Below, one piece after another: positions 5,159 through 59,658 of a stretch of DNA of 64,000 nucleotides. The notes beneath the pieces were generated by a model that saw only the letters and a program-made list of their open reading frames with translations, was not told where the DNA came from and ran no database searches. Both the position numbers and the translations under genes were made by a program. How positions within the stretch are numbered: position 1 is the stretch's first letter; each line of letters starts with the position of its first letter. Origin of the DNA: Spiroplasma endosymbiont of Aspidapion aeneum (GTDB lineage Bacteria > Bacillota_I > Bacilli_A > Mycoplasmatales > Mycoplasmataceae); the NCBI RefSeq assembly GCF_964031045.1, contig NZ_OZ034994.1, forward strand, positions 434,001 to 498,000, written 5' to 3'.

Positions 5159-6067
5159 ATGAAAGGTTGAAAAAGAACAACAACCAGAAAGCATATGCTA
5201 TTTGTCCCAGCTGACAAACCTGCAATGTATCGTGATGTTATATTTTATAAACCAGATACAATTATGTTTGACTTAGAAGATGCAATAAGTTTTTCTGAGA
5301 AAAATTCAACTAGAATATTGTTAAATCAAATGTTACAAACAATTGATTATAATACATATGGAATTGAAGTTTGTGCGCGTGTTAATGGATTAGATACACA
5401 ATGATTTGAAGAAGATGTAAAAGCTGTTATTAATGGTGGAGTTAATATGATTAGACTTCCAAAAGTTGAATCAAAAGAAGATATCATTGCTGCTATTGCT
5501 GTTATGGAAAAATATGAAAAAGAATTTTCTAAGGATGAAACATTAATATTTGTAGCAATCGAATCTGCTAAAGGTGTATTAAATGCTAATGAGATTGTTC
5601 AAGCATCTAAAAGAGTGGTTGGAATTGCTTTAGGTGGAATGGATTATCTTCTAGATTTAAAAGCAGAAAAACTACCAGATCGTACTGAATTATTATACGC
5701 TAGACAACATTTAGTTCATGTTGCTAGAGCCAATAAAATTGATGCCTTTGATTTATTGTTTTCAAATACAACAGATGATGAGGGATTTATAAAAGAATTT
5801 AAATTTATAAAAGCCTTAGGATTTACAGGAAAATCTGTAATTCATCCAAATCAAATTGGTTTAATCAATGAAGTATATAAACCAACTTCAAAACAAATAG
5901 AATATGCTTTAGAAATGAAAAAAGCATTTGATGAATCAATTAAAAAAGGTGTTGGAGTATTCTTGTTTAGAGGTAATATGGTTGATAAACCCGTTATTGA
6001 AAAACAATTAGAAATAATTGATCTTGCAATTGAATTTGGATTAATTTCAAAAGGAGATATTAAATAA
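5159..6067 (+). CDS. citE: Citrate lyase beta subunit (citryl-ACP lyase)
   Basis: Cleaves citryl-ACP to acetyl-ACP and oxaloacetate. The protein has 302 residues, normal for CitE. Visible blocks are LFVPADKP (14-21), MFDLEDA (36-42) with acidic metal-binding residues, RLPKVES, IESAKGV and ALGGMDY, and VIHPNQI near the C-terminal third. Two TGA codons, one at codon 4 and one at 5402, are read as Trp. The stop shares its last base with the citF start (TAATG), a sign of translational coupling. Confidence 0.95.
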
Positions 6068-7578
6068 TGAGTAGAATAATTGATGAAAAAACTTTATCAC
6101 AAATAAAAAACTTAAATTATAAATTAACACCATTTAAGCCAAATGAAAATAAACCAAAAGCAAAACATATTGTTAGAGACAAAATTGTAGATATGAAAAC
6201 TGCAATAAAAAATTGTGGTCTTAAAGATGGAATGACAATATCATTTCATCACCATTTTCGTGGAGGTGATTTAACTGTTAAACATGTAATGGAAACAATC
6301 AAAGATTTAAAAATAAAAAAATTAACAATTGCAAGTAGTAGTTTTACAGATGCTCATAACTTTTTAACAACATATATTGAAGATGGTTATGTTGTTGGTT
6401 TAGAAACTTCTGGTTGTCGAGATGAATTGGGAAGATTTATATCTTCTGGAAAGTGTCCAAAACCGATGATAATTAGAAGTCACGGTGGAAGAGCTCGCGC
6501 TATTGAAAGCGGTGATTTAAAAATTGATGTTGCATTTATTGCAGCATCATCTAGTGATTGTTTGGGAAATTCTAACGGAACAATCGGAAAATCATTATGT
6601 GGGTCCTTGGGATATGCTATGGTTGATGCTAAATATGCTACTAAAACAATTATAATTACAGACACCATTGTTGATTATCCAAATCAAAAAAAATCAATTT
6701 CTCAATCAGATGTTGATTGAGTTGTTAAGGTTGATACAATTGGTGACTCAAAAAAAATTGTTGGTGGAGAGATTCGTTTAACATCTGCACCAAAAGAAGA
6801 AATAATTGCTAAAAATATTGGAAAGATTGTAACCAACACTAGTTTATTTCAGGATGGATTTTCAATTCAAATGGGTTCTGGTGGAGCCTCTCTTTCTGCT
6901 ATTAAAGTTATTAAAGAAGAGATGATTAAAAGAAATATTAAAGCTTCATTTTGCTTGGGGGGGATAACATCACACCAAGTTAAATTATTGGATGAAGGTC
7001 TTGTTGAAAGATTAATTGATACACAATGTTTTGATTATGGCGCAGTAGAATCAATATCAAATAATGCAAATCATATGGAAATATCTGCATCAGAATATGC
7101 AAACCCTAGTAATAAATCCCCATTTGTTAATAAGTTAGATTATGTAATTTTATCTGCCCTAGAGGTTGATTTAGATTTTAATGTTAATGTAATTACTGGT
7201 TCTGATGGAATTATTAGAGGGGCAAGTGGTGGACACTCAGACACAGCTGATGGAGCTAAAATTTCAATAATTGCACTTCCATTAATTAGAGGAAGAATTA
7301 GTTGTATCTCAGAAAAAGTAAATACAATTATTACCCCCGGAAATACAGTTGACATTGTTGTTAGTGACTTTGGTATTGCCGTTAATCCAATACGAACAGA
7401 TTTAATTAAAGAACTAAAAGAAAAAAATATTCCCTTAATAACATTATCACAAATGAAGGAAATGGCAGAGAGTGTAATTGGAGTAGCTAAACCAATTGAT
7501 TTTGATTATTCCAAACCCGTTGCTGTTGTCGAGTATCGAGATGGCAGTGTTATCGATGTTGTTTATAAAGTTAAATAG
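6067..7578 (+). CDS. citF: Citrate lyase alpha subunit (citrate:acetyl-ACP transferase)
   Basis: Swaps the acetyl group on the carrier protein for citrate, producing the citryl-ACP that CitE cleaves. The 503-residue length is normal for the family. Seen: SFHHHFRGGDLT early in the protein, GSGGASL, LSALEVDLDFNVN, and GASGGHSDTADGAK in the C-terminal half. One in-frame TGA at 6718 encodes Trp. It overlaps citE by one base and citX by one base, so D, E, F and X are tightly coupled, as expected for subunits and a modifying enzyme of one complex. Confidence 0.95.
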
Positions 7579-8096
7579 TGTTAAAAAGTTTACAAAAAAT
7601 ATTAAAAGGAAAAGAAGAAAAACAAGAAATTATAAATAATTTATTTAAAAAAGATATTTATATAATTTCTTTAAACACAAATTTCCCAGGAAAGAAAAAA
7701 AATATTCCCCTTTATAAAAAGTTTTTTAATAAAATTGAAAAACAAATATCAGTAAAAATTAATGAAATTTTTAATCCTCAATCATTTATTGTTATTAAAA
7801 ACAATTCTGGAATAACGAAATTGTATGTTATAGATAAAACCAATGACGGGGTTGAAAGTAAATTAGAACTTATAGCAATAGAAAATAACTTTCAAAACTA
7901 TTCAAAATATATAGATTTAGATTTATATATTAAAAACGATAAATTAATAAGTAGAAGTGATCTTAATATTGCAAATAAAAAATGTTTTATTTGCAATAAT
8001 GATGCAAAAATTTGTACAAGAAACAAAAACCATTCTATAGATGAATTGGTAAGATTTGTAAAAAATGATATTTATAAATTATTAAAAATGAGGTAA
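7578..8096 (+). CDS. citX: Holo-citrate lyase synthase (prosthetic group transferase)
   Basis: Transfers the phosphoribosyl-dephospho-CoA group made by CitG onto the CitD Ser. The protein has 172 residues. The diagnostic C-terminal block is CFICNNDAKICTRNKNHS (136-153), matching the CitX pattern C-x2-C, C-x-R, x3-HS. The N-terminal half is poorly conserved and Lys-rich. The GTG start at 7578 overlaps the citF TAG stop by one base; no better start exists in frame. It is a separate gene here, not a CitX-CitG fusion as in some enterobacteria. Confidence 0.85.
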   Translation: MLKSLQKILKGKEEKQEIINNLFKKDIYIISLNTNFPGKKKNIPLYKKFFNKIEKQISVKINEIFNPQSFIVIKNNSGITKLYVIDKTNDGVESKLELIAIENNFQNYSKYIDLDLYIKNDKLISRSDLNIANKKCFICNNDAKICTRNKNHSIDELVRFVKNDIYKLLKMR

Positions 8097-8100
8097 ATAA

Positions 8101-9147
8101 ATGAGTAACAATTTTGAAATTGAGGAGTTAGATCTTACTAATAGCCAAAAATATAATGAACTATCAGAATTTCTCTTAAGGTTTGATCTTAAAATAGATA
8201 ATATTGATTATACTATTGTTTTTAGGGATGATAATAATATTATAGCTACTGTTAGCAAATATGGAAATCTTATAAAGTGTAGTGCAATATGCGAAAAATA
8301 TACAGGAAGAAATCTTCTAAATACACTTATTACGAAAATGTTTTACAAGATAAATGAAGAGGGTTATGACTGTTCATTTTTAATTACGAAAATATCGAAT
8401 AAATCAAAGTTTGAACAAATAGGATTGTATAAGGTATATCAAAATGATAATATTATTTTCTTTACAAATAATTATGAAAAATTAAAAAAATATGAAAGAT
8501 ACTTATTTGATATATCAAAGAAAAATGATCGAGAAAAAGCTGCCGCCGTTGTTGTTAATGCAAATCCATTATCTAAAGGTCACGATTATTTAATAAATAC
8601 AGCAGCAACGCAAAATGAGTTGGTTTATATAATTCCTGTTTATGAGGATGTTTCTTTCTTTACATATAAAGAAAGAGTAGAGATGATAAGAAACTCGATT
8701 AAAAAATATGATAATGTATATTTACTTGAGGGTAGTGAATTTCTAATTTCAAAATCAACATTTCCAAGTTATTTTTTAAATCAAGAAAAGGAAATTGTAG
8801 AAGAACAGTCTAAACTAGATGCTGGCCTATTTTGACAAATTTATTGTAAAAATCTAAATATTGTCAATAGATATGTTGGAGAAGAGCCCTTCTCAAGAAC
8901 AACAAATATTTACAATTATGTATTAGAAGAATTTTTAAAATCTAAAAAAATAAAATTAAATATAATTAAGAGATTAGAAGTTGATGGAAAACCAATATCT
9001 GCCTCTCAAATAAGAGAGGCGATATTAAACCAAGATATTGAACTATTAAAAAAATATTGCTTAGATACAAATATTGATTTTATATCTAGTAAAGAAATAT
9101 ATGATAGAGCAATTAATCATAAGGATAAAATTTATAAAAAAAATTAA
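8101..9147 (+). CDS. citC: Citrate lyase ligase (acetate:SH-citrate lyase ligase)
   Basis: Activates holo-citrate lyase by acetylating the thiol of its prosthetic group with ATP and acetate. With the TGA at 8833 read as Trp the protein has 348 residues, the usual CitC size. The N-terminal half resembles a GNAT-like domain. The C-terminal half is a nucleotidyltransferase with NANPLSKGH (153-161), a form of the HxGH motif, and ISASQIRE near 300. GLFWQIYCKNLNI spans the recoded Trp. It begins 4 bases after citX, directly after AAATGAGGTAAATAA, and ends 13 bases before the aldolase gene. Confidence 0.92.
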
Positions 9148-11783: not shown

Positions 11784-12168
11784 ATTATGATTATCACATT
11801 AAATTTAGTTAATATTCTTGTTTTTTAGTATTTTTTTGAAAAAAAATTTTTTAATCATAATAATATCAATTTGTGGCATTAAAAATTCCATCAAAGTTAT
11901 TGAAATACTTGTTTAAGGTAATAGTATTATAATATGTTCAATTATCAAATTTGCAAAAATATAAAAACTGTAAATTTGTCTTAAAGTAAGATAATAATAC
12001 ACTTGTTTAAGAAACATATTGTATAATTATAATGAAAAGTATTGTACTATTAATTATTAAAGGTAAAACTTTAACTATGAAGTGCATAATATGTTCATAA
12101 ATGTATAACAAATTATATTTATTGTGGGTATTTTATGAATTAAACTTTGTAAAATGGAAGGAAGTCAC
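11784..12168. other. Divergent intergenic region with short repeats
   Basis: Holds promoters for the SprT-like gene (minus) and the first array gene (plus). ACTTGTTTAAG occurs at 11907 and 12001, and ATAATATGTTCA at 11929 and 12086, so two different 11-12-base words are each present twice. TATAAT occurs near 12026. No gene is seen. Confidence 0.45.
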
Positions 12169-12912
12169 ATGTTTAAAGAAGTAAAAAACAAAGTAAAACA
12201 AAAATGACCGTCAAGAATAAAAAATTCAATAAACGCTATTTTAATTATTGGGTGTCTTGATATTTTTTTAAGTTTTTCACTTTCTTTAGTTGGGATCTAT
12301 AACCCATTCAGTCTGTCTTCTATTTATTTGTTAATATTTAACTTTTCTCTCATAATAGCTGGAATTTCATATGCTGCTTATTTTCTTTCAGAATTGATTT
12401 ATAACTATAATTTAATCATTAGAAATGCAATTAGTAGAACACAAAAAATTAATAAATTACTAGTAATTAATGAAATTTCTTCATTTCTAAAAATCTATTT
12501 CTTTATAACATTTATATTTTACTTTTTAATCTTTAGAGACGCTTTTACCTTTATTAACCATAAACTTCTTTACAACGCTTATATTGTCTTTATTGTTCTT
12601 AGTACAATTGTATTTACAATGTCATTGATTATTTTAATTTTATTAATAGCGTATAATAACAAATTAAGAAAAAAATTAATTAAAAGAAAAGAATATTCTT
12701 TATTATCTATTTTAGAAAATAATGATCTTACACTTTTTAAATTTTTAGAAAATAAAATATCTTTTATTTATAAATATAAAACAATTGAAAATAATAAAAA
12801 TAATAAACAACTACCAAGCTATTTCATTGAAATGGATGGCTTATTTAAATGTATAAAAAATACAAAAATAATAACAATCCAAAAAGGAAATATTTACCCT
12901 AGCTATTTATAG
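12169..12912 (+). CDS. Four-helix membrane protein, array copy 1
   Basis: Unrecognised. The protein has 247 residues: a basic N-terminus (MFKEVKNKVKQKW), about four hydrophobic membrane segments within residues 25-165, and a Lys/Asn-rich C-terminal cytoplasmic part. GGAAGG precedes the ATG. It is paired with a lipoprotein gene 62 bases downstream, and this pair recurs three times in the array. Compared with copy 2 it differs in the first about 150 bases and upstream, then is identical. It may anchor or export the lipoprotein; that is a guess from co-occurrence only. Confidence 0.75.
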
Positions 12913-12974
12913 TAATTTTTTAATTGTACAATTTTATATTAAACAAAACTATAAATAGAATAGAGGTATATTTT

Positions 12975-14522
12975 ATGAAAAAATTTTTAACATTATTTGG
13001 TTCATTAAGTCTTGCAATATCTGCATCATTGCCAGTGACTTCTTGTTCTTCTCCAAATAAAAGTAAAACTCCAACAAAACCAACCACCAACTTATTAATC
13101 CAAAATAATATCAAGGATTTCTTTTCTGCTAGAAAATTTCTCGCAAAACAATTCAATCTCAAACTAGATGAATTTACAATGACATGGACAAGTTCTCAAA
13201 CTGTAAGATTGGTTCCAATGCCTGGAACCTCTCTAAGAAATACAATGACATCATTAGTCGATTATCGACTAGATAGTGGATATAATTCAATTTCAAAAAA
13301 TGAGAGTTTGTCTACATTGAAAAATGAGTGTCCTTTAACAAAAGAAGAACTTAAAATACCATATATGTCTTCTTTAGAACATCCTCTGAACACCGCACCA
13401 CCAACAGATAAGCAAACATTAGCTAATGATTATTTTAATGTTTTAAAATACATGTCAGGAAAAGAAATGGATGCAAATATTTATACATATAGTTATAAAA
13501 ATGCATCTGATCAAAATAACCCCAACCTAAAAGGAATATTAACAGTTGTGAATAAAAATGACTCAACAGATACTGTTGATGTAAATGTAGAAAAAAATGC
13601 AATTCCAGTTGATAAATTCTTTGATTGTAATGATATATATAAGATTTATTTACCAGAAGCTATGACAAATATTACTAAAGATAATTTTTCATTATTAGGA
13701 GCAGGTGAAAGTGGACCATTTCAAGCATTTATGAATTACTATTTTGCGACAGGAAATTATGCTAATAATTTTTATGGTTATTATAAAGATGATATTGTTA
13801 ATTTGTTCACTGTAATAATGATGCCTTTTGGTCCTGGTAATAACGGAATATCTATTAAAAAAACACTAGATAGTTCTGGCGAAGCGGGAGTTCTTAACTT
13901 TACACTTAAAAATAATAAAGATAATTATAGTAATGATTCTGGAATAATTAGTTCAGATGAAGATGGAAATATTTTTAATATAAATATTAATTTTACAACA
14001 GTTATGCCAGATACTGATGAATATGATTATTATGCAAGATATATTATTCAAAGAGATGCTAATGGAAAAGAACAAACTAATCTATGAGATACGTCATCAG
14101 GTGTTAATCTTAAGTATGGCCCAGTTAAGCATATCAAAGACTTAACAAGTGAAAAAGAAAGTAAAGACAAGTTCTCAAAAACAAATATTGGAAAAGACTA
14201 TTTAACTGAATATGAATTTGATGAATTTAAATTAAAAAATCCTACAGAGAGTGATATAGATATTAAAAAAGAATTTGTAAATAAACTTAATAGTGTTACT
14301 GGTTCAAAATTGGATTTTGGTGTATTTCTTGACGACGAAATATCTTTAATAAAAGAGGATGATGGTTATTATTACCTTGCTCCAAAGTTTGGTTCAAGAG
14401 TGATGAGTATTATGCAAAAAAATGCTATGGTGAATAATTTTATTACAATAACACCATTAGTCCCTAAATTTCAGAACACCATTGGCTCATATGTTTTTAG
14501 GGTTAATGTACAAAATAACTAA
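12975..14522 (+). CDS. Surface lipoprotein, array copy 1
   Basis: A 515-residue lipoprotein. The signal peptide starts MKKFLTLFGS and ends PVTSC, with the lipidated Cys at position 24. The rest is hydrophilic, Asn/Asp-rich and without internal membrane segments, as expected for an outer-face protein. A TGA at 14085 is Trp; the frame then runs to 14522. No domain was recognised. AGAGG precedes the ATG. Trp at 13185 is TGG here but TGA in copy 3, which helps prove the genetic code. It is probably co-transcribed with the membrane protein before it. Confidence 0.88.
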
Positions 14523-14682
14523 TAATAATTATCAATTTTATTATTTTAATTCTTATAGGTTAATTATAATAAATTACTATTATTTAAAAGAATGTAGTAG
14601 TAATTGATAATACATAAAAAAAGCAAGTAACATAAATATTAATCTGTATAATTTAGCATTATAGTCGGTGTACTAAATTGTT

Positions 14683-14723
14683 ATGATCTGCGTGAATTAT
14701 TATTTTCTCAGATCATTTTTTAT
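14683..14723 (+). terminator. Hairpin with T run downstream of lipoprotein copy 1
   Basis: ATGATCTG (14683-14690) and CAGATCAT (14709-14716) pair perfectly across 18 bases, followed by TTTTTTATTT. A TATAAT near 14647 just upstream means it could also end a short RNA of about 65 bases rather than the lipoprotein mRNA. Exact copy at 18834-18874. Confidence 0.6.
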
Positions 14724-15506
14724 TTAGCCTTTATTTTGTTGTAAATGCATATTGTTATTAAAAGCTATATATTTTTAATAAGTAATTAGATAACATTCTG
14801 AGATGTTAATATTGTAATAAAAAAATTTTCTTAAATAATAAAAATAGATTATTATTAAATTTATAGAGTTGATTTAAAATAATAGATGTTTTTATGAAAA
14901 AACTATCATTAATTTATTTTGTATTTAAAATAAATTTCTTATTTTTTTACCTTTATTGAATATTTTTTAGTTAACTTATTAAAAAATAGAAGAACCTTTT
15001 ATATAAAAAAAGTACAATATCTTACTCAAAAAATAGTTGGTAAAAGTAAATTTAAGTAAATGAAGTTAAACTATGTTGTAGATAATAAAAATATATTTCA
15101 AATAACTACCAAAAACTCTGTCAGATGTAAAATCATTAAAATATGTGGTGGATAAAAATTGACCATCTGCATATAATTAAATAGCAAATAAAATTACAAG
15201 TATATCTAAAGGACCGTTTCATCCCTACATATGATGAATTTAATGCTCTTTAAGCAAGTATATTATAAAAAAATTAATATCTGATTTGAGAAAATTTTAA
15301 AAAAAAATTCAAATTATTTAGTTATATTTCCTATAGAACGATTATTCTCTAATAGAATTTTTAATGAAAATAATCTAGAAAAAATATTTTAGATATTTTA
15401 ATTGGTAAACTATGTATCTAAAGAATTATTTGTTAAATATAATCATTTAATTACTAGTCTTAATCACGATATATTATTTTAAATTTAAATTTAGTAAGCA
15501 ATTTAA

Positions 15507-15546
15507 TTAATTTTTCAATATCTTGTTTGGTATATTGAAAAATTAA
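15507..15546. promoter_or_regulatory. 15-bp perfect palindrome upstream of Panacea gene, copy 1
   Basis: TTAATTTTTCAATAT (15507-15521) and its exact reverse complement (15532-15546) flank a 10-base loop. It ends 2 bases before a TATAAT at 15549 and about 40 bases before the extended -10 at 15586. There is no T run on either side, so an operator for autoregulation is more likely than a terminator. Copy 2 is at 19658-19697. Confidence 0.5.
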
Positions 15547-15585
15547 CCTATAATGATGATTTAAGTATTAATTGGTAACATCTTT

Positions 15586-15594
15586 TGATATAAT
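15586..15594 (+). promoter_or_regulatory. Extended -10 promoter of Panacea copy 1
   Basis: TGATATAAT, the TG-N-TATAAT form, 35 bases before the GTG start. Copy 2 lies 4151 bases downstream. Confidence 0.55.
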
Positions 15595-15629
15595 AATGAT
15601 AAAAGAAAATACGTGGAAGGAACATTCTT

Positions 15630-16112
15630 GTGGAAAATTCACTTAATATTGTTAAATATTTAAGATCAATAAACACTGATAAATTTAAAAGTCGAAAACT
15701 TATTAAAATTAATGGTTTAGAAATGTATGAGGGAGAATTTTGCTTATATAAAATATTATATTTGGCAAATATTTTTTATTATCTATTAAATAATAATTAT
15801 TTAATCGATCCAATGAAGTGAAAAAAATGAAAAAATGGACCTGCTAATACTAAAATTAGAAAATATTTTAAATTGGTTGATAAGGACTATAATTTAGAAG
15901 ATAAAATAAAATTTTTTTTAGATGCAATAAATAATTTTTTTATCGATGCCTCGTCAACCGAATTGTATGAAATCACTCATTGTGACCCTTCATATATCCA
16001 AGCAGAGGATAATCAAGAAATTGATATTGCAAAAAATATTAAATATTATAAAAAAGAGTACAAGGAAGCAATATCTTGCTTTAAACAAAAATTTAATGAC
16101 ATAGTTGCGTAA
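15630..16112 (+). CDS. Panacea-domain (SocA-like antitoxin) protein, copy 1
   Basis: A 160-residue protein resembling the Panacea/DUF4065 domain, used as the antitoxin in PanAT and SocAB-type toxin-antitoxin systems. Matching features are a helix LYKILYLANIFYYLL, then MKWKKWKNGPAN, like the family F-x-x-W-x-x-GP signature, then LDAINNFF and ELYEITHCDPSY, like its ELSxxTH-x-DPW block. Trp codons are TGA. The start is the GTG at 15630, preceded by GGAAGG. No toxin gene is obvious next to it: 1.1 kb of non-coding DNA lies upstream and a membrane-protein gene follows. Membrane toxins are known partners of Panacea antitoxins, so that neighbour is a candidate, but this is inference. Confidence 0.68.
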
Positions 16113-16319
16113 ATTAATTTTACCAATGGATAGAAATGATTTTTCTAATATAGTTACTCCCACTTTAAAAATTATTTCTTAATTTTAAAATAGTAATTTT
16201 ATATAACTTTTTATGCCATTTTATCAATATTGAATATATAATAAAATTAGTTATGTTGTTAATAAATATTATTATGCATTTATTTTTTTAAAAATAAGAA
16301 ACAAAGAAATGGTGACTGC

Positions 16320-17063
16320 ATGTTTAAAGAAGTAAAAAACAAAGTAAAACAAAAATGACCGTCAAGAATAAAAAATTCAATAAACGCTATTTTAATTATT
16401 GGGTGTCTTGATATTTTTTTAAGTTTTTTACTTTCTTTAGTTGGGGTTTATAATCCATTTAGTCTATCTTCTATTTATTTGTTAATATTTAACTTTTCTC
16501 TCATAATAGCTGGAATTTCATATGCTGCTTATTTTCTTTCAGAATTGATTTATAACTATAATTTAATCATTAGAAATGCAATTAGTAGAACACAAAAAAT
16601 TAATAAATTACTAGTAATTAATGAAATTTCTTCATTTCTAAAAATCTATTTCTTTATAACATTTATATTTTACTTTTTAATCTTTAGAGACGCTTTTACC
16701 TTTATTAACCATAAACTTCTTTACAACGCTTATATTGTCTTTATTGTTCTTAGTACAATTGTATTTACAATGTCATTGATTATTTTAATTTTATTAATAG
16801 CGTATAATAACAAATTAAGAAAAAAATTAATTAAAAGAAAAGAATATTCTTTATTATCTATTTTAGAAAATAATGATCTTACACTTTTTAAATTTTTAGA
16901 AAATAAAATATCTTTTATTTATAAATATAAAACAATTGAAAATAATAAAAATAATAAACAACTACCAAGCTATTTCATTGAAATGGATGGCTTATTTAAA
17001 TGTATAAAAAATACAAAAATAATAACAATCCAAAAAGGAAATATTTACCCTAGCTATTTATAG
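16320..17063 (+). CDS. Four-helix membrane protein, array copy 2 (mosaic)
   Basis: Same 247-residue family as copies 1 and 3. Its promoter and first about 145 bases are identical to copy 3, including TTTACTTTC and the GGGGTTTAT stretch, while its 3' end is identical to copy 1, including AGAAAATAAAAT and the SYL ending. It is therefore a hybrid of copies 1 and 3, with the join somewhere in the 434 bases (16467-16900) that all three share. The function is as unknown as for copy 1. Confidence 0.78.
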
Positions 17064-17125
17064 TAATTTTTTAATTGTACAATTTTATATTAAACAAAAC
17101 TATAAATAGAATAGAGGTATATTTT

Positions 17126-18673
17126 ATGAAAAAATTTTTAACATTATTTGGTTCATTAAGTCTTGCAATATCTGCATCATTGCCAGTGACTTCTTGTTCT
17201 TCTCCAAATAAAAGTAAAACTCCAACAAAACCAACCACCAACTTATTAATCCAAAATAATATCAAGGATTTCTTTTCTGCTAGAAAATTTCTCGCAAAAC
17301 AATTCAATCTCAAACTAGATGAATTTACAATGACATGGACAAGTTCTCAAACTGTAAGATTGGTTCCAATGCCTGGAACCTCTCTAAGAAATACAATGAC
17401 ATCATTAGTCGATTATCGACTAGATAGTGGATATAATTCAATTTCAAAAAATGAGAGTTTGTCTACATTGAAAAATGAGTGTCCTTTAACAAAAGAAGAA
17501 CTTAAAATACCATATATGTCTTCTTTAGAACATCCTCTGAACACCGCACCACCAACAGATAAGCAAACATTAGCTAATGATTATTTTAATGTTTTAAAAT
17601 ACATGTCAGGAAAAGAAATGGATGCAAATATTTATACATATAGTTATAAAAATGCATCTGATCAAAATAACCCCAACCTAAAAGGAATATTAACAGTTGT
17701 GAATAAAAATGACTCAACAGATACTGTTGATGTAAATGTAGAAAAAAATGCAATTCCAGTTGATAAATTCTTTGATTGTAATGATATATATAAGATTTAT
17801 TTACCAGAAGCTATGACAAATATTACTAAAGATAATTTTTCATTATTAGGAGCAGGTGAAAGTGGACCATTTCAAGCATTTATGAATTACTATTTTGCGA
17901 CAGGAAATTATGCTAATAATTTTTATGGTTATTATAAAGATGATATTGTTAATTTGTTCACTGTAATAATGATGCCTTTTGGTCCTGGTAATAACGGAAT
18001 ATCTATTAAAAAAACACTAGATAGTTCTGGCGAAGCGGGAGTTCTTAACTTTACACTTAAAAATAATAAAGATAATTATAGTAATGATTCTGGAATAATT
18101 AGTTCAGATGAAGATGGAAATATTTTTAATATAAATATTAATTTTACAACAGTTATGCCAGATACTGATGAATATGATTATTATGCAAGATATATTATTC
18201 AAAGAGATGCTAATGGAAAAGAACAAACTAATCTATGAGATACGTCATCAGGTGTTAATCTTAAGTATGGCCCAGTTAAGCATATCAAAGACTTAACAAG
18301 TGAAAAAGAAAGTAAAGACAAGTTCTCAAAAACAAATATTGGAAAAGACTATTTAACTGAATATGAATTTGATGAATTTAAATTAAAAAATCCTACAGAG
18401 AGTGATATAGATATTAAAAAAGAATTTGTAAATAAACTTAATAGTGTTACTGGTTCAAAATTGGATTTTGGTGTATTTCTTGACGACGAAATATCTTTAA
18501 TAAAAGAGGATGATGGTTATTATTACCTTGCTCCAAAGTTTGGTTCAAGAGTGATGAGTATTATGCAAAAAAATGCTATGGTGAATAATTTTATTACAAT
18601 AACACCATTAGTCCCTAAATTTCAGAACACCATTGGCTCATATGTTTTTAGGGTTAATGTACAAAATAACTAA
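17126..18673 (+). CDS. Surface lipoprotein, array copy 2
   Basis: Identical in sequence to copy 1 (515 residues, lipid-modified Cys24, TGA Trp at 18236). Exact identity over 1548 bases, including silent sites, means the duplication is recent, is kept uniform by gene conversion, or is an assembly artefact. Expression from both copies would double the dose of this antigen. Confidence 0.88.
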
Positions 18674-19780
18674 TAATAATTATCAATTTTATTATTTTAA
18701 TTCTTATAGGTTAATTATAATAAATTACTATTATTTAAAAGAATGTAGTAGTAATTGATAATACATAAAAAAAGCAAGTAACATAAATATTAATCTGTAT
18801 AATTTAGCATTATAGTCGGTGTACTAAATTGTTATGATCTGCGTGAATTATTATTTTCTCAGATCATTTTTTATTTAGCCTTTATTTTGTTGTAAATGCA
18901 TATTGTTATTAAAAGCTATATATTTTTAATAAGTAATTAGATAACATTCTGAGATGTTAATATTGTAATAAAAAAATTTTCTTAAATAATAAAAATAGAT
19001 TATTATTAAATTTATAGAGTTGATTTAAAATAATAGATGTTTTTATGAAAAAACTATCATTAATTTATTTTGTATTTAAAATAAATTTCTTATTTTTTTA
19101 CCTTTATTGAATATTTTTTAGTTAACTTATTAAAAAATAGAAGAACCTTTTATATAAAAAAAGTACAATATCTTACTCAAAAAATAGTTGGTAAAAGTAA
19201 ATTTAAGTAAATGAAGTTAAACTATGTTGTAGATAATAAAAATATATTTCAAATAACTACCAAAAACTCTGTCAGATGTAAAATCATTAAAATATGTGGT
19301 GGATAAAAATTGACCATCTGCATATAATTAAATAGCAAATAAAATTACAAGTATATCTAAAGGACCGTTTCATCCCTACATATGATGAATTTAATGCTCT
19401 TTAAGCAAGTATATTATAAAAAAATTAATATCTGATTTGAGAAAATTTTAAAAAAAAATTCAAATTATTTAGTTATATTTCCTATAGAACGATTATTCTC
19501 TAATAGAATTTTTAATGAAAATAATCTAGAAAAAATATTTTAGATATTTTAATTGGTAAACTATGTATCTAAAGAATTATTTGTTAAATATAATCATTTA
19601 ATTACTAGTCTTAATCACGATATATTATTTTAAATTTAAATTTAGTAAGCAATTTAATTAATTTTTCAATATCTTGTTTGGTATATTGAAAAATTAACCT
19701 ATAATGATGATTTAAGTATTAATTGGTAACATCTTTTGATATAATAATGATAAAAGAAAATACGTGGAAGGAACATTCTT
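18674..19780. other. 1.1-kb non-coding or decayed stretch, copy 2
   Basis: Exact copy of 14523-15629, with the hairpin plus T run at 18834-18874 and the 15-bp palindrome at 19658-19697. No gene recognised. Confidence 0.5.
19658..19697. promoter_or_regulatory. 15-bp palindrome upstream of Panacea gene, copy 2
   Basis: Identical to the element at 15507-15546 and in the same position relative to the downstream gene. Confidence 0.5.
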
Positions 19781-20263
19781 GTGGAAAATTCACTTAATAT
19801 TGTTAAATATTTAAGATCAATAAACACTGATAAATTTAAAAGTCGAAAACTTATTAAAATTAATGGTTTAGAAATGTATGAGGGAGAATTTTGCTTATAT
19901 AAAATATTATATTTGGCAAATATTTTTTATTATCTATTAAATAATAATTATTTAATCGATCCAATGAAGTGAAAAAAATGAAAAAATGGACCTGCTAATA
20001 CTAAAATTAGAAAATATTTTAAATTGGTTGATAAGGACTATAATTTAGAAGATAAAATAAAATTTTTTTTAGATGCAATAAATAATTTTTTTATCGATGC
20101 CTCGTCAACCGAATTGTATGAAATCACTCATTGTGACCCTTCATATATCCAAGCAGAGGATAATCAAGAAATTGATATTGCAAAAAATATTAAATATTAT
20201 AAAAAAGAGTACAAGGAAGCAATATCTTGCTTTAAACAAAAATTTAATGACATAGTTGCGTAA
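19781..20263 (+). CDS. Panacea-domain (SocA-like antitoxin) protein, copy 2
   Basis: Identical to copy 1 (160 residues, GTG start). In both copies the next gene downstream, about 207 bases away, is a four-helix membrane protein whose 5' half is the copy 3 type. So the Panacea-to-membrane-protein junction is the ancestral one, and the junction upstream of membrane copy 1 is different. Confidence 0.68.
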
Positions 20264-20470
20264 ATTAATTTTACCAATGGATAGAAATGATTTTTCTAAT
20301 ATAGTTACTCCCACTTTAAAAATTATTTCTTAATTTTAAAATAGTAATTTTATATAACTTTTTATGCCATTTTATCAATATTGAATATATAATAAAATTA
20401 GTTATGTTGTTAATAAATATTATTATGCATTTATTTTTTTAAAAATAAGAAACAAAGAAATGGTGACTGC

Positions 20471-21214
20471 ATGTTTAAAGAAGTAAAAAACAAAGTAAAA
20501 CAAAAATGACCGTCAAGAATAAAAAATTCAATAAACGCTATTTTAATTATTGGGTGTCTTGATATTTTTTTAAGTTTTTTACTTTCTTTAGTTGGGGTTT
20601 ATAATCCATTTAGTCTATCTTCTATTTATTTGTTAATATTTAACTTTTCTCTCATAATAGCTGGAATTTCATATGCTGCTTATTTTCTTTCAGAATTGAT
20701 TTATAACTATAATTTAATCATTAGAAATGCAATTAGTAGAACACAAAAAATTAATAAATTACTAGTAATTAATGAAATTTCTTCATTTCTAAAAATCTAT
20801 TTCTTTATAACATTTATATTTTACTTTTTAATCTTTAGAGACGCTTTTACCTTTATTAACCATAAACTTCTTTACAACGCTTATATTGTCTTTATTGTTC
20901 TTAGTACAATTGTATTTACAATGTCATTGATTATTTTAATTTTATTAATAGCGTATAATAACAAATTAAGAAAAAAATTAATTAAAAGAAAAGAATATTC
21001 TTTATTATCTATTTTAGAAAATAATGATCTTACACTTTTTAAATTTTTAGACAATAAAATATCTTTTATTTATAAATATAAAACAATTGACAATAACAAA
21101 AATAATAAACAATTGCCAAACTATTTCATTGAAATGGATGGTTTATTTAAATGTATAAAAAATACAAAAATAATAACAATCCAAAAAGGAAATATTTACC
21201 CTATCTATTTATAG
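20471..21214 (+). CDS. Four-helix membrane protein, array copy 3
   Basis: 247 residues, same family as copies 1 and 2. The 5' part equals copy 2. The 3' part has its own changes from 21052 on, such as LDNKIS for LENKIS, and ends PIYL instead of PSYL. These few differences show that copies 1 and 3 are older paralogues and not part of the exact duplication. It is followed by the diverged lipoprotein copy 3. Confidence 0.76.
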
Positions 21215-21276
21215 TAATTTTTTAATTGTACAATTTTATATTAAACAAAACTATAAATAGAATAGAGGTATATTTT

Positions 21277-22863
21277 ATGAAAAAATTTTTAACATTATTT
21301 GGTTCATTAAGCCTTGCAATATCTGCATCATTGCCAGTGACTTCTTGTTCTTCTCCAAATAAAAGTAAAACTCCAACAAAACCCGGAACAGACCCTGAGT
21401 CTGGAAAAGCATATAGCAATCTATTAGTTGAAAATAATATCAAGGATTTCTTTTCTGCTAGAAAATTTCTTGCAAAAAAATTTAATCTTCAACTAGATGA
21501 ATTTACAATGACTTGAACAAGTTCTCAAACTGTAAGACTGGTTCCAATGCCTGGAACCTCTCTAAGAAACACAATGACATCATTAGTCGATTATCGATTA
21601 GATAGTGGTTATAATTCAATTTCAAAAAATGACAGTTTGTCTACATTAAAAGACGAGTGTCCATTAACACAAGTGGAACTTAAAATACCATATATTGAAT
21701 CTTTGGAAAAAAATGCAAAAACAGATATTGATAAACAAACATTAGCTGATGATTATTTTAATGTTTTAAAATACATGTCAGGAAAAGAAATGGATGCAAA
21801 TATTTATACATATAGTTATAAAAATGCTTCTGATCTGTCCAATCCTAACCTAAAAGGAATATTAACAGTTGTGAATAAAAATGACTCAACAGATACTATT
21901 GATGTAAATGTAGAAAAAAATGCAATTCCAGTTGATGAATTCTTTGACTGCGACGATATATATAATATTTATTTACCAGAAGCTATGACAAATATTACTA
22001 AAGATGATTTTTCCGCCTTAGGAGGAGCTTCAACTACTGGGGGACCATTTCAAGCATATATGAATTATTATTTTGCAACAGGCAATTATGCAAATAATTT
22101 TTATGGTTATTATAAAGATGATATTGTTGATTTGTTTTCAGGAATAATGGGTCTTGGTGGTGATAATAGCGGAATATCTATTAAAAAAACACTAGATAGT
22201 TCTGGCAAAGCAGGAGTTCTTAATTTTACTCTTAAAAATATAGATAATTATAAAAATGATTCTGGATTAATTAGTTCAGATGGAGAAGGAAATATTTTTA
22301 ATATAAATATTAATTTTACAACAGTTATGCCAGATACAGATGAATATGATTATTATGCAAGATATATTATTCAAAAAGATGCTAATGGAAAAGAACAAAC
22401 TAATCTATGAGAAGTAAAGGAAAATACTTTGAATAATTTAGGTCATCCAGTTACAGGAATTAAAGACTTAACAAGTGATAAAAAAAGTAAAGATGCTTTT
22501 TCAAAAACAAATATTGGAAAAGACTATTTAACTGAATATGAATTTGATGACTTTAAATTAAAAAATTCTACTGAAAGTAATATAGATATTAAAAAAGAAT
22601 TTGTAAATAAACTTAATAGTATTACTGGTTCAAAATTGGATTTTGGTGTATTTCTTGATGATGAAATATCTTTAATAAGCAACAATGATGGTTATTTATA
22701 TCTTGCTCCAAAGTTTGGATCAAGAATTATGGATATTGTTCAAAGAGATGCCATGGTTAAAAATGTTACTATTTTTGGAATGGATATGACGGTCCCATTA
22801 GTTCCTCAATTCCAAAAAACTATTGGTTCATATGTATTTAGAATTGATGTACAAAATAACTAA
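21277..22863 (+). CDS. Surface lipoprotein, array copy 3 (diverged)
   Basis: A 528-residue paralogue of copies 1 and 2. The signal peptide is the same (lipid-modified Cys24), but the product carries an extra GTDPESGKAYS segment after the lipobox and many substitutions further on. Differences are concentrated in certain loops, for example around 21690-21720, 22020-22040 and 22140-22170, while blocks such as ADANIY-like YMSGKEMDANIYTYSYK are unchanged, a pattern seen in variable surface antigens. TGA at 21514 is Trp where copies 1 and 2 have TGG. Homology to the copy 1 region ends about 50 bases after the stop. Confidence 0.86.
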
Positions 22864-22970
22864 TAATAATTATCAATTTTATTATTTTAATTTCTTCAGG
22901 TTAATTATAATAAGGGGTACCAAAATTTTCTACCACAAAATTAATTACACAACCCTGTAGTAAAAAGTAC

Positions 22971-24051: not shown

Positions 24052-27000
24052 ATGAAAAAATTATTGTCATTATTGTGTTTAATTAGTTTACCATTTTCAT
24101 CATCAATGTCAATAACCTCATGTTTTGGAACATCATCACCAAAAAAAGACAAATCTGTTTTAGATGGGGAGGTTAATTTTGAGCATAGTGAATACAATAT
24201 TGTAAAAGGGGCTGCTGCTAGTGTTGTTGTCACAAACTTTAGTAAGTTAAGTGCTGATGGTTTTACAAAAGCATGTAGTATTTATAGTGACGATGATAGT
24301 GTTGCACAATATATAAATTTGAACAAAGATGGTATTCAAAATTATCAAACAATTCAAATTTCTGGAATTAAGGCTGGTCATACAAAAGTATCAGTTAGTT
24401 TTACAAATGTTAATGATCTTGTTATAAAGAAAGGAAGCTTTGATGTAAATGTTGTTGATTTTTCTACATACCAACCAAAAATAGATACTAAACCAATATC
24501 TATAGATTTATCCGATTCAGATTCTGATGTAGAAGTAGGTAGTCTTCCAAATTATGATGATTTTAAAAAATTCAATTTTACAGACTTTACTGTCTCATTA
24601 ACAAAAAAAGATGGAGATAATAATGTTGATCCAAATAATTTTTTAACAGGTGGATATCTTGATGGTAATGGGGATATTTATTTTAAAATTGATTATTCTA
24701 ATTTTAAACCAAAAACAACAAAAGAATCCATAAAAATTGCTGCCGCTAATATTGTATTAAAGAATACTGCTGCTAAATATGTTTCAAATGCCTTTCCTTT
24801 AAAATTTAGCGATGTTAAGCTTAATAAGCAAATAATTATAGACCCTCCAGCCAATACTCCAATTGATTTGAAAAATAGCGTTGATCTAGGTTTATCATTT
24901 GGAGATGGCCAAAAATTTAGTGCAGATGACATAAAAAAATATTCTCCTAAGATAGGGGTAACCTTTTCTGGATCTGGAGGAAATGAGTTTAAATTCACTT
25001 CCCAAATAAATGAAAATAATGATAAACCAAACCTTCATATCGAGTTTATACCCCCAAAAAATAGTTATGGGGAAGGGAAAATAGATGTCAGCATTATTTT
25101 CACAGCGAATGCTTTTACATATTCAGGTTTTCTATCAGTTAAATATAAATCCTATAATGTTCAACCCTCAGGATTTACTCATATATACACAGAAAATGGT
25201 TATACTAGTGTATATTCAGATAAAAAATTTAATGATTGAAATGAAAGTAATCCAATTGATAATAACGTTAAAGTGACTTCATCAGCTGATTTAGCTGAAT
25301 TAAAAAAAGATGGTTTTTCATATAAAGATACTATAGTTTTTGATTCATCATCTAATGCTTCTGAATGGGCAAAAGTTGAAAAATTGGATTTAACAAAAGA
25401 AACTGATGTGGAAACATTCAAAAACTATGATGCACAAAAAACTATAGATAATATTACAAAATTTACAATTAATGATATTTCATTTGATAGTGACAATAAT
25501 CTACATTTAAACATTAAAGCCTTATCAAAGCAAATTGATGATGGTGGAGTAATTTATCTCGTTTCAAGGTTTACAAATTCTTTAGGAAATTATTGTGCAG
25601 CTTCTGCAACATTTTCATATGCACAATCAAAACCTGTACATAAGAATTTAATAATAACTCCTGGAAAAATTGATGGCCAAAATAATACTGGTGAAACATT
25701 TTCAAATTCTATTCACTTAAATAATGACAGTTCTGAACAATTTTCCGATTCATACCAAGTTCAATCTGCAAATGATACAAATGTTGATTTATCAAATATT
25801 TCTGTAACCAGTTCTGCTCCAACAATTATAAGTGTAGAACAATCATTAGAACAAAAAAATGGTAAGTGGTATATAAAAATGCGTCTTATTGGTCAAAAAT
25901 CTACTGATGTTGCAAGTGGAAAAGTAACAATTTCTCTTAATGATGGAAGTGGAGCTGGAAGCACAAATGTTGATATTTTTTATGGAACATTTATTGGTGC
26001 TGATGCAAGCGTAGGAGACTATTCAATAAATAATCAAAAAACACAAGGATCTGCTAATTACTATGTAGCATCATCTGCATCAAGTAGAGCTGTATCTATA
26101 TCATATTCTGCAAGTTATGGAGTTCAGAATGCTCCTAATTTAGAATTTGCAGATAAATATTCATATTCTGGTTCTAATTCACCATTTGTTTTTAAAGATA
26201 AATCAAATGAGCTTGGAAATGTTACTTTTGATGGAAATGTTAATGTAACTGGGAGAGGTGTAATTTCTGTAACATATGATAACATCATTAGTGGAAAAAT
26301 ATTATTCAACGGAGATATTAATTACACTGGTATAAATGATAACAATGCAGAATCATGTGGTGTTATAAGTGAATATTATACATCTAATTCTGGAATTAAA
26401 AATTCAACCAGAATTGCTGTTGATGAGGGAGTTCAAATTAAAGGAAATGTAAATATTATCCCATCTTCAAATATGGGTGCTGGGATTGGATTTATCAATA
26501 CAATTAAGTCGGGTGCTATTGGCCAAGTTAATGCTGAGAAAAATGTAATAATTGATGCAACTAATGTGAAACTTACAACAAGCGAAGTTATTTATGCTGG
26601 TATAATCTATTCAAATAGTAATTGTAAAGACAATGATTATAACATTCAAAGTCTTGCTGGTTTGGATATAAAAGGAGATGCTAAAATTAATGGTACATGA
26701 GAAACGCTAAATGGTTATATGGAACAACACGCAATAATTTACAATATTGACGAATTTTATGCCCCTAAATCAAAACTTCAATTTGAAGGAAATACGGGTC
26801 TTTTCCGAGATGATGCTCCGATTGACGGTATTCTTTATTCAGAATATAACACATCAGATAAATCAAGTATTTTTGCAATTGGAGAAATAGATATTAATAA
26901 TCTTCCACCTGATAAATATGGAAATATAAGTGCTATGTATATACTCGCGGTAGTGGCGTCAGGTTCTGGGTATGTTCAAAATTTTAATATCAAGGCTAAT

Positions 27001-27072
27001 GGTAAACAAGCTAATATTGATGGTGGTGTATTTTCATATGAACATGTATATAGATATCAGGACCTAAAATAA
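24052..27072 (+). CDS. Large surface lipoprotein, 1006 aa
   Basis: A single frame through TGA codons at 25237 and 26698. The signal peptide begins MKKLLSLL and ends SITSC, Cys24 being lipidated. Residues about 40-150 have the rhythm of a bacterial Ig-like (BIG2-type) repeat, including a GIKAGHTKVSVSF segment. A second similar stretch lies near 580-640. The C-terminal third has regularly spaced Gly/Asn/Val runs (VTFDGNVNV, ILFNGDINY, IKGNVNI, IKGDAKI) that suggest a beta-helix of short repeats. No named family. AAGGAGG precedes the ATG. A strong terminator follows. It is likely an adhesin-like surface protein, by architecture only. Confidence 0.85.
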
Positions 27073-38883: not shown

Positions 38884-41352
38884 ATGGGTATAAAGAAAAA
38901 AATTCTTATGTTATCATTAACAATTCCTGTTGCCAACACAGCAGATGTTTTTGCGTGTAAATCTGGTGAAGCATCTACATCGCATACATTAGCAGAAAAA
39001 ATAGCTAGTATTAATTCAATTAATTTAAAAACATTAAAATCTGCTGGAATAAAACTTAAAAGAAATTTTTCTGAGGTTTCTTATAATGATTTTTTGAATT
39101 ATTTAGGTATTCAAAACTTATTTCCTCAAAATGGTGACTCAACAACAGTGCTTCAAAAAGTCGTTGATAATATCGCAACAATTGATATGGCAAATCAGTT
39201 TTTATTTGATATATCATCAAAAATTCCTGCCTATGGCTGAATTAATCAAAAATTACGTTGACAAACAAGTTCTTTTGGTCTCACAGATTTCATTAGTTCT
39301 TCAAACTCTCATAAAGATTTTTATAATATAGTATCTGGATGAATGAAGAGTACTGAAGATTGGTCGTTATCTGTAACATTTTTAACTTCTGATAAAAAAG
39401 GATGAAAACCATCTTTATCAAATAGTAAAAGTGATTATCCAGAATATGCTAGAATAAACATTAATAAAAAGGCTTCTTTTGATGAAAATGGAATATTAGA
39501 CCCTTTAAATTCTAACCCTGGAGCAACTCATAAATCTGTTGATAATACAAATAGAGCATTTGAAGCCATACCTTCTGATAACGGGGATATATATCAAGGA
39601 TTATATTATAGTTCTGGTTTAATTGATGTCTCTAGTATATATGAATCTGTTGATGATTCTAATACAATTTTTCCAACAAATGTTGTCGACCTATCAATTA
39701 CAGCTTTTGACTGGGTAAATAATCTTTCACAAGCTAACTTAAATACTGTCTTAGAAGATCGTCAAAAGGCAATTGAGGATAGATTAACAAAATGGTTTGA
39801 AGCCCATAATATTTATTTAACAGAAGATGATTATGATGGTACAAAAACTTTGTATAATACATTTAGTAAAATTGGAACAAAGAGTTTTATGATTTCTCAG
39901 ATGCAACAGCGTCTTATCAACCAAGTTAACCTAGAATTGGACTATACAGTTTTAAATCGAAGCATTTTATATAAAAATAATGACTCACTTTATAAAGAAT
40001 GTTTAACATCTTTATCAAAAATATTTAATAATATTAAATATGGTTTAAAACAAGCACAAACAAGAGATGCTGGAGATAGAATTTATAAATACGATGAAGA
40101 TATTTTAGAACAATTAACAAAAGATGGCAATAAAGATCTTACAAAAAAAGCAACTGATCAACTTAAAGATGATGATGGGAGTGATTTTACTGTAAAGTAT
40201 TTTATAGATAATGCTGACCGATTTTATTCACTATCTGAAGGAGAAAATCTATCAACAAATCAAATTGCATCAATTATGTCGTTAGTTTCTGCTGTAATTG
40301 GAGATAAGACTATTCGAGAATATGTTCTTCCTGACTTACAAAATCAACAAAAAACAGAAATAGATTTTAATGGTGAGAATCATCAATTAACTTCATCAAT
40401 GAATGATACTTATATGTCAGATTCTGCTTCATTAAACTTAAAAGATATTTCACAGAATCCAGGAAGTTATATGGATAATTTTACCCCACTAGGATTATCT
40501 TATGATTTAAAATTTGTATTTTATTATTATACAACAGGATACAATCCCTCAGGTTCAATTGCTGGAGGTGTTGCAGAAAAACAATTATTATACTATGACC
40601 CAGATAAAAATTGAGGGTCCTCTGGAGATAAAAGTTCAATAACAACTCAAATATTTAGAAATATTTTTGCATATACAAGAATATCAACTCTTTTACCAAA
40701 TATATTATCATATAATAAAAATCAAACCTACTTTTCTTCTAATCTTAACACCGATAATGCATGAACATATTTTAAAAGCAAACTTAAAGATGGCGAAACT
40801 ATAAGCCCTGAGGATGTTTTTGGAGTTGCAACTAATGAAATTAATAGTAACTTCTTTAATGACATTTTTGACTCAAAAAATAGCTCGGCAAAAATTAAAA
40901 ATTATTCTTCAAATCGACCACTTAAAGAATGGTCAAATCCAGGTGGAGGTTTTAGCCAATTGCCCACCCCTTATTCTGATCAGGCTTTTGCCTCAATGTT
41001 TAAGAAGGATCTTTTTGAAGTTAAAGCGTTCGCAGGTTCTGATGGAAAATCTTATAATGGTTTAATAGGACTATCTAGTGTAAAAAATATAGATGAATTA
41101 ACAAAAAGTTTAAGTTCTGCTAATGATAGTTCCTTTATTTTTGGACAATCAAATAGTTATGGTGACGTCTTAGAATCTGCTAAACAATGATATAATTATG
41201 TAATAGATGAGAAACAAAAAATTGCCAATCCATTCTTAACATTTAAAGCAGGAATATCTGACAATAGTAATTTTGTAACTTCATTATATAATGAAGTTAG
41301 TGATGGAACAAACCCATATTGGTCGTTTGTTAATCCAAAAAAAGGGGTGTAG
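38884..41352 (+). CDS. Surface lipoprotein, 822 aa
   Basis: One frame through many TGA Trp codons. The signal peptide MGIKKKILML ends DVFAC with Cys25 as lipid site. The mature part is soluble and mixed alpha/beta, with Trp-rich stretches (SFGLTDF, WFEAHNIY). No domain recognised. TATAAT lies 15 bases before the ATG, so the 5' UTR is only about 10 bases and lacks a clear ribosome site. The next gene starts 3 bases after its stop, so the two proteins are probably made together and may work as a pair. Confidence 0.82.
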
Positions 41353-41355
41353 TTT

Positions 41356-43548
41356 ATGATTGGGAAAAAACTATTAATTAGCATTTGTGCATTATCACTA
41401 ACAGTTGCAACTGGAGCTGTTGCTTTTTCCTTTACTCATAATGAAACTCCACCTTCTAATGCAAAAAAAGAAACAATTGGAACAATTGATGTTGACTATA
41501 AATTTTCATATGACCCAACTAATAAAGATAATCCAATAACTGTAAATGAAGATGGTGTTGATTATTGAGGACAGCAATTAAAAAATTTAGTAGATACAAT
41601 CAAAGATAAAGAAACTAATTCCTCTATTTCAAATCTAGGAATTTCATCTGTTGGTGCAAAACTTTACTATAAAGATAATATGGTAAAAGAATCAGAAAAT
41701 ACTAACGATATTCCCGATAAAGAAATTGGACCAAAACTTTGAGGAGAAATGGATAAATTTATAAATAAAAAGGAACCAACCGAAAAGTTTAAATCAACTA
41801 CAAAATTTAATTTTATTTTAAAGCAATTTAAAGGGGATGCTGACCTTTTTTATGCAACTAGTTATATAACTTGAGATGGAGATACTAAATCTGGAACAAA
41901 CACGCTAAATGCTCATATTTTACGTGGTTTTAATACCTATGATTTTTTCAATTTTAAACAATTAGCATCACCTTCATTAGATGAAATTTCAACATTTAAA
42001 TTAACAACAAGTATTAGTTTCTATGGAAATATTATTCCCTCAATTGAACACACAGATACATCTTATACTAGTCAAGTGCATTTAACCGATGATGGCTATA
42101 CATATTCATGAAAAAATGTAGATTCATATTTTAGAAAAAATCCTGATGTATGAGTGGAAATAAGTAGTGCAGTTTTAAAAACAACACAAGCAGATATTTC
42201 ACAACTTCAAGAGGCGAGTGATATGTCACTAAAATTCCATAAAGCAATTAAAAATAATGATGGCACATATAAATTAGGAGAAGAAATAACCAATCGAGAT
42301 GATAATTATAAAGATGTTGGTAGTGATTATGGATATTTTTATATCTCATTAAATTTTAAAAACGAATTTAAGGGAACATATAATATGTTAGTTGATACTG
42401 TTAAAACAAACAATCCATATAATCTTGATATTTTAAAAGACCAAAAATTCTCAGGAGATACAACAATTAAGGTGTCGTCAACATACAACATTTCAACAAC
42501 ATTTACAAAAAATCGAGAACAACACGATATTAAAGCAACAATCGATACTAATTGAATATCTGGGGCTATGATAAATAAAGCAACAGAAACAAAAACCAAT
42601 TTAGTAGATTCTATTGTTTCACAACTAAAAGATGATTCTGTTAAAAAAATATCAAAAGTAATTGTCACAAAAATTGAGACAAGTTATAAAAGTGACAATA
42701 GTTCTGTTAATAGCGATTTACCATCAGATACAATAACATGAGATAAATCAAAATCTAATAAAACAGATCGTAATGTTCTTTCTACTTATTTAACCGATGC
42801 TGTTATTGCTAAAGCAAAATCTCAAGAAATTGATAAAACTATTTTGCCAGGAAATGAAGATATTGATTACACAAGAATTGATGATGATAATGTTGAAATA
42901 TTGCCATATATTAGAACAGGAGAACAAACATCTTATACAACAGCTTTCGATAATTCAAATAATTTGAAAGCAAAATACAATCTAATGTATAAAAGTGGAG
43001 ATGAAATAAATATATCTAATGTTTACTCATTACAAATTGAATATAGCAACCCATTCTCAACTATTGTTGATGATTCAATAAAATATTATAATTCCTTAAT
43101 TGGTGACTTTAATAATAATCAGTTATTATCTATGTTTGACATTGAATCTAATTCAAAAACAATAGAAGAAATGAAAAGCAAATTGAAAATAAATAATGGA
43201 ATTGTAGGATATAAAAATCAAATATTTGATAGTGTACAAAAAGTTTACACCAAATTCTTTACTCAAGCAGGGATAAATCTAACCCAAAAGGACTTGTTAA
43301 TTGACGGATTATTTTTAAAAAATCACAATTCTAATAAGCCAGAAGATATTGATGACCAATTTGACCTTCAATATGGATATGGATTAAAAAACTTAAATAT
43401 TGTAACAAAAACAACAGAAGAAGATGCAAAAAATACTCGATCTTCGGGAGACGAGATTTATATTGGAGTTAGTGTAAATAATAATCTAACAACTAATAAT
43501 CCAATTTATGGAATAACATATATTCCAATTACAGTATTTGTTAAATAA
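41356..43548 (+). CDS. Secreted or N-terminally anchored protein, 730 aa
   Basis: The N-terminus MIGKKLLISICALSL plus TVATGAVAFSF is a signal peptide or anchor without a lipobox Cys. The remainder is hydrophilic, Asn/Asp/Thr-rich, and read through many TGA codons. AAAGGGGTG stands just before the start, inside the end of the preceding gene. No domain recognised. Its coupling to the 822-aa lipoprotein suggests a two-part surface complex. No strong terminator is visible after it. Confidence 0.8.
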
Positions 43549-58902: not shown

Positions 58903-59658
58903 ATGAATTTTTTACAGCATTTTCTAGTTGAAGGTTTAGGAACTATGATCCTAATTGTTCTTGGTAACGGTGTTGTTGGTAATGTTGTCCTTAAAAAAAA
59001 TAAGGGATATGAAGGGGGATGGTTGTTGATTACTGTTGGCTGAGGGTTGGCAGTAACAATGGCAGCATTAATATGTATTGCTTTAAAAAGTGATGCTGTT
59101 GCTTCATTTAACCCAGCATTAACTGTTGCACTTTGTATAGATGGGTTACTAAAAGTTAATCTTTTGGCAATTTATTTGGGTGCAGAACTTATAGGAGCAT
59201 TTATTGGTCAAATAATTGTTGACCTACTATATGTAAATCATATAAAAGTTCATTTAACATCAGCGCAAGGAGAAGAAGAAAAAAAAGCTGCACAAGCAGC
59301 GGTCTTGGGATTACATTCTACTGGACCCGCAATTAGATCTTATTTTTCAAATTTCTTATGTGAATTTGTAGCAACATCTGCATTAATTCTTGGAATTGTT
59401 GCCTTAGCATTGGCAAAAACATTTGCGATTGCACCATTTGTGAACCCATTTTTTGCTGGAGCCTTAGTATCTGCAATTGGTATTTGTCTAGGTGGATTAA
59501 CTGGTTTTGCAATTAATCCTGCGAGAGATTTAATGCCAAGAATTGTTCACACAATATTTTATCGTAAAGAAGGTGGTTCTGATTGAAAATATGCATGAGT
59601 TCCAGTTATGGGACCGATGGCTGCTGGTGTAGTAATTGGTTGTTTGATGTTAATCTAA
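58903..59658 (+). CDS. glpF: Glycerol uptake facilitator
   Basis: An aquaglyceroporin of 251 residues with about six membrane segments. The two half-helix motifs are SFNPALT in the first half and INPARDL in the second; the Asp after the second NPAR is the mark of glycerol-conducting members. TGA codons at 59041, 59584 and 59596 are Trp. TGGAGG precedes the ATG. It is followed 10 bases later by glpO and then glpK, so import, oxidation and phosphorylation of glycerol are encoded together. Confidence 0.95.

Follow-up and report, generated by a model that had tools for sequence, protein, structure and literature searches.

Tandem duplications commonly arise when direct repeats cross over unequally with the help of RecA, a route that is well documented (PMC12892994, PMC7661048). 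In the csa1 gene accordion of Staphylococcus aureus, which has been credited to RecA-dependent recombination, the genes concerned are tandem paralogous lipoprotein genes; the DNA that intervenes between similar copies is duplicated, and long perfect repeats are present after the first event (PMC7360770). Direct repeats also border the RecA-dependent duplications of IS6-flanked resistance genes in E. coli (PMC12892994) and the large RecA-dependent duplications of Pseudomonas (PMC7661048), in which the copies are exact and head-to-tail and a hybrid repeat stands at the join. Among the Mollicutes, the lipoprotein cluster of M. mycoides subsp. capri consists of lineage-specific lipoprotein paralogues that adjoin one another (PMC3053259). 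The spiroplasma locus described here resembles these systems in the respects just named, with RecA-dependent recombination as the probable route.

The window, by which we mean the whole 64-kb stretch that was analysed, comprises bases 434001 to 498000 of a one-contig genome of 1,209,723 bases that is 98.6% complete. Its GC content is 26%, and genetic code table 4, in which TGA is read as Trp, is required for its long open frames. The genetic code, the type of lipoprotein and the gene content suggest that the family is Spiroplasma-like. Elsewhere, judging by sequence, the window contains an apparent citrate lyase operon at 5159 to 9147, with citE-, citF-, citX- and citC-like reading frames, and, at 58903 to 62348, what look like successive genes for a channel protein, an FAD-dependent oxidase and a glycerol kinase, an arrangement similar to the mycoplasma glpF-glpO-glpK cluster.

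Layout of the locus

The genes are arranged in the order M1, L1, spacer, Panacea-like gene, M2, L2, spacer, second Panacea-like gene, M3, L3 and a DUF3800 gene, where M stands for membrane protein and L for lipoprotein; the M, L and Panacea-like genes all lie on the + strand, and the coordinates of the M genes were read under table 4. M1 (12169 to 12912) encodes a protein of 247 aa with four hydrophobic stretches, for which no Pfam family scored over its cut-off, and L1 (12975 to 14522) encodes a lipoprotein of 515 aa. An AT-rich non-coding spacer, confined to the duplicated unit (14573 to 15629, with a second copy at 18724 to 19780), precedes the first Panacea-like (SocA/DUF4065-like) gene, which encodes 160 aa (15630 to 16112). 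M2 (16320 to 17063) is followed by L2 (17126 to 18673), which is exactly equal to L1, and by the second Panacea-like gene (19781 to 20263), which is exactly equal to the first. M3 (20471 to 21214) and L3 (21277 to 22863), a diverged lipoprotein gene whose product of 528 aa has 84% amino acid identity to that of L1, complete the array.

The sequence MKKFLTLFGSLSLAISASLPVTSC of L fits a signal peptide with a lipobox (LPVTSC in L1) of the Mollicute type, with an NCBIfam LP_plasma score of 21.5 bits that falls just below the cut-off of 24. No relatives of L were found in genome_contigs or viral_contigs; two N-terminal matches among the 60 family genomes, at 36% and 28% identity, were taken as shared signal-peptide similarity. 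For M, no relatives were found in the 60 family genomes, and the 320 genomes of the order gave two matches, which were confined to a hydrophobic stretch with 33% identity and were taken as composition. The structure models of both proteins were too poor for a fold search, with a mean pLDDT of 50 for M and 35 for L. Downstream of the array, the window contains a further lipoprotein-like gene of 1006 aa without a Pfam match (24052 to 27072) and two more large lipoprotein-like genes (38884 to 41352 and 41356 to 43548).

An exact tandem repeat

By comparing the window with itself, we found that positions 12316 to 16900 are identical to positions 16467 to 21051, that is, 4585 bases at an offset of 4151 with 0 mismatches. 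The observation made in the sequence-only reading of this DNA, which had equated x with x+4151 over 12316 to 16900, is therefore correct to the base. Further identical runs occur at the same offset, at 12168 to 12277, 16902 to 16939, 16992 to 17052, 17054 to 17160 and 17162 to 17232, and every other offset in the 64-kb window yields at most 3 shared 20-mers, except for 8302, which is twice 4151, and for paired offsets that come from these same paralogues and are shifted by indels. An exact match of 4585 bases is far beyond chance. The segment 13000 to 15000 occurs in the whole genome in two copies at 100% and one at 85% over 1573 bases, and the remaining matches are shorter than 60 bases.

The repeat can be described as two exactly equal units of 4151 bases each (12316 to 16466 and 16467 to 20617), whose limits are arbitrary inside a core of 434 bases that is the same in M1, M2 and M3 (12316 to 12749, 16467 to 16900 and 20618 to 21051) and that forms the zone of the join. 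Because a computed deletion of 4151 bases gives one and the same product for any start within 12316 to 16901, the join can be placed no more finely than the core at 12316 to 12749. Once the unit is removed, the only possible parent is M1-lipoprotein 1-Panacea-like gene-M3-lipoprotein 3, and the longest exact repeat within this collapsed two-pair locus is the 434-base core. An ancestral two-pair array had been proposed earlier, and a single parent with two pairs is indeed what results wherever the unit is taken out.

A mosaic membrane-protein gene at the inner joint

Within the gene, M1 and M2 differ only at positions 12278, 12295, 12297, 12303, 12309 and 12315, and M2 and M3 differ only at 16901, 16940, 16946, 16962, 16964, 16969, 16991 and 17053; past the gene, differences between the M2 and M3 units run all through the lipoprotein. 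If the two ends of M1 are called type A and the two ends of M3 type B, then M2 has a 5' part of type B, with copy-3 bases at six of six differing sites, and a 3' part of type A, with copy-1 bases at eight of eight. All 14 diagnostic sites of M2 fit a single switch from M3 type to M1 type inside the 434-base core, and M2 encodes an intact protein. In other words, the hybrid at the inner joint has its front from the downstream parent and its back from the upstream parent (6 + 8 sites, 0 exceptions).

These sites reproduce without exception the map drawn in the sequence-only reading, in which copy 2 had the upstream region and 5' end of copy 3 and the 3' end of copy 1. The alignment of the three M genes revealed no copy-3-type bases in the 3' half of M2, and the claim that the join is limited to 434 bases common to the three copies agrees with the identity of 12316 to 12749 in all of them.

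Upstream of the ATG the picture is different: M2 and M3 have their upstream region in common, whereas that of M1 is unrelated to it, and the similarity of M1 to M2 and M3 starts at the start codons (12169, 16320 and 20471). The block of M and L in pair 1 (12168 to 14572) aligns with that in pair 3 (20470 to 22913) at 90% identity, beginning at the start codon. Because the upstream regions of M1 and M3 are unrelated, the two genes probably have different promoters.

Homogenisation of the core

Over the 744 bases of the gene, M1 and M3 show 14 differences, none of them inside the core; every one falls among the 310 bases of the flanks. In random trials, 14 randomly placed differences left a gap this long with P = 6.5e-5. 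The same contrast is seen at synonymous sites, with 8 changes in 57.5 flank sites versus 0 in 88.7 core sites; synonymous divergence is approximately 0.15 on either side of the core and zero within it, and the probability that none of the eight synonymous changes would fall in the core is 6e-4. Strong protein constraint was ruled out as the cause of the identical core, since synonymous changes are missing there too.

Because a single crossover between diverged paralogues leaves the cores of M1 and M3 different, the history must include one or more additional events that made the two cores alike, either conversion or a previous cycle of expansion and contraction. Expansion followed by contraction would leave a B-A-B mosaic in M3, and hence an M1-like island. 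The one-event history given in the sequence-only reading is thus incomplete, as the core is identical while the flanks differ at 14 of 310 bases. L1 and L3 are more diverged than the M genes (dS 0.275, dN 0.101, ratio 0.37), which agrees with exchange that may have been concentrated in M. A history in which the identity of the core predates the duplication would be the simpler one, because an identical core supplies the substrate for recombination.

Origin of the duplication

We consider unequal homologous recombination between M1 and M3, following homogenisation of the core, to be the best explanation of the duplicated unit, and a probable one. The parent locus would have contained two paralogous pairs, M1-L1 and M3-L3, with the spacer and the Panacea-like gene between them. 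Conversion, or expansion and then contraction, would have equalised 434 bases of M1 and M3, and RecA-type recombination, in which the M1 core of one sister chromosome paired with the M3 core of its sister, would then have doubled the intervening 4151 bases, creating the hybrid M2 along with a second identical lipoprotein and Panacea-like gene. We infer this order of events and the sister-chromosome crossover as the route; a reinserted circle of 4151 bases would give the same sequence.

The homology shared at the join, 434 identical bases, is of sufficient length for RecA. The genome has an intact recA (340 aa, with GPESSGKTT) and a ruvB match over its cut-off. A search of the genome for the MutS C-terminal domain found none, so recombination between imperfect repeats would be eased; the absence of mutS and mutL has been reported as conserved across Spiroplasma. 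With 0 differences in the 4151 duplicated bases, a rate of 1e-7, which serves only to illustrate a slower symbiont, would bound the age of the duplication at about 3,600 years. The duplication would probably raise the dose of L1 and of the Panacea-like protein.

The mosaic is not diagnostic, in that a crossover and an assembly-graph loop walked twice give the same string. The genome might hold only M1-L1-Panacea-M3-L3, the assembler having taken the loop through the 434-base repeat twice: a simulated second pass of the loop at the core restores the window exactly, the longest exact repeat of the collapsed locus is that same core, zero differences between the units would be expected, and assemblies are known to go wrong at tandem repeats (PMC6868369). 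However, the usual error is collapse and not expansion, and a repeat of 434 bases is trivial for long reads, whose use is suggested by the closed single contig of 1.21 Mb (1,209,723 bases). Because the genome is in one contig and the repeat that could confuse an assembler is only 434 bases long, we favour the biological reading and infer that the duplication is present in the cell; an assembly artefact seems unlikely to us. The crossover between paralogues 1 and 3 put forward in the sequence-only reading thus draws support from the mosaic, the join zone and the parent, but the mosaic alone does not prove it, a graph loop doing equally well, and the statement that a crossover had been "caught" in the gene and explains the duplication goes too far when a loop walked twice produces a string identical to the window.

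If the three-copy array were old, with units 1 and 2 both ancient and one recently overwritten by the other through gene conversion, the conversion between M genes that the identical core demands in any case would already be part of the explanation; yet the tracts would have to span all 4151 bases, spacer included, and end just where one crossover would, and a fresh duplication is simpler. We regard such an overwriting as very improbable. Less credible still, to the point of being nearly negligible, is variation that is programmed or site-specific, with the units being moved by a recombinase dedicated to the task. The abrupt change at the start codon, with M1 and M3 unrelated upstream and similar from the ATG onward, is the kind of pattern that would suit it, but none of the ORFs at the locus encodes a recombinase, there is no short site at the joint, and the join lies within 434 bases of homology of an ordinary coding kind.

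The Panacea-like gene and the spacer

The 160-aa protein scores 21.0 bits against Pfam PF13274 (Panacea), under the curated cut-off of 25.7 for membership. Four homologues from the family genomes align to it at 27-44% identity; three of these pass the cut-off (30.8, 35.3 and 33.5 bits), whereas the fourth, which is 41% identical, scores only 15.7 bits and falls short. Among the relatives at 41-44% identity, one passes. On these scores the label "Panacea-like" appears fair, and "antitoxin" would go further than the evidence. Scans of the collections with an alignment of the Panacea-like family gave no confirmed matches.

No toxin-like neighbour of the gene is evident: M2 or M3, of no known toxin family, follows after 207 bp, and a gene-free spacer of 1.1 kb lies upstream. 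Because Panacea proteins are able to neutralise membrane-acting toxins (PMC8832971), M is conceivable as a partner by analogy; M1 has no Panacea-like gene before it. In two relatives (L023, 4588 to 4884, and L024, 4315 to 4761), Panacea-type genes that score over the Pfam cut-off have small genes, of 98 and 148 aa, immediately after them; these small genes, which have no Pfam family, are possible candidates for toxin partners.

The spacer, about 1.06 kb of AT-rich sequence in each copy, is unusually long for the genome, and no decayed gene is recognisable in it. It was also considered as a decayed element and rejected as such, its matches in 49 of the 60 genomes being mostly short, AT-rich and without a consistent partner. 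A plasmid search with the region and a phage search with the spacer and Panacea-like gene gave no match, so there is no evidence of a mobile-element origin.

Comparison with known systems

Both the mechanism and the kind of event are well known, namely ordinary gene duplication. A real duplication would have to be very young, and the surface lipoprotein unit, which is lineage-specific, would have a short homogenised stretch of a gene as its handle for recombination; the locus would then be a tractable example of surface gene dose change in mutS-lacking, fast-evolving, insect-associated Mollicutes, with the caution that a crossover-like mosaic is exactly the output of an assembly-graph loop walked twice. 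It is possible, although we hold the idea only tentatively, that this spiroplasma, which has recA but lacks mutS, harbours a gene accordion that is still active here; the sequence-only reading had likewise suggested that copy number may still be changing in the population. Individual cells would then carry 0, 1, 2 or more units, full contraction would leave a fourth M hybrid (M1 front, M3 back) with L3 alone, and the type and dose of surface lipoprotein would change in step with whether the Panacea-like gene is lost or gained.

The variable lipoprotein families of mycoplasmas differ from this locus, which showed neither phase-variation repeats nor an inverted promoter nor IS elements and which has three lipoprotein copies only, two of them identical. 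For csa1, long reads, qPCR and experiment demonstrated that the copy number changes, whereas the present comparison draws on one genome sequence and is a likeness of gene arrangement. The repeats of the E. coli and Pseudomonas cases are mobile elements or rRNA operons, while the repeats of this locus are paralogous genes that have diverged around a homogenised core of 434 bases. Finally, in csa1 the lipoprotein genes themselves recombine, whereas here the join lies in the neighbouring membrane-protein gene.
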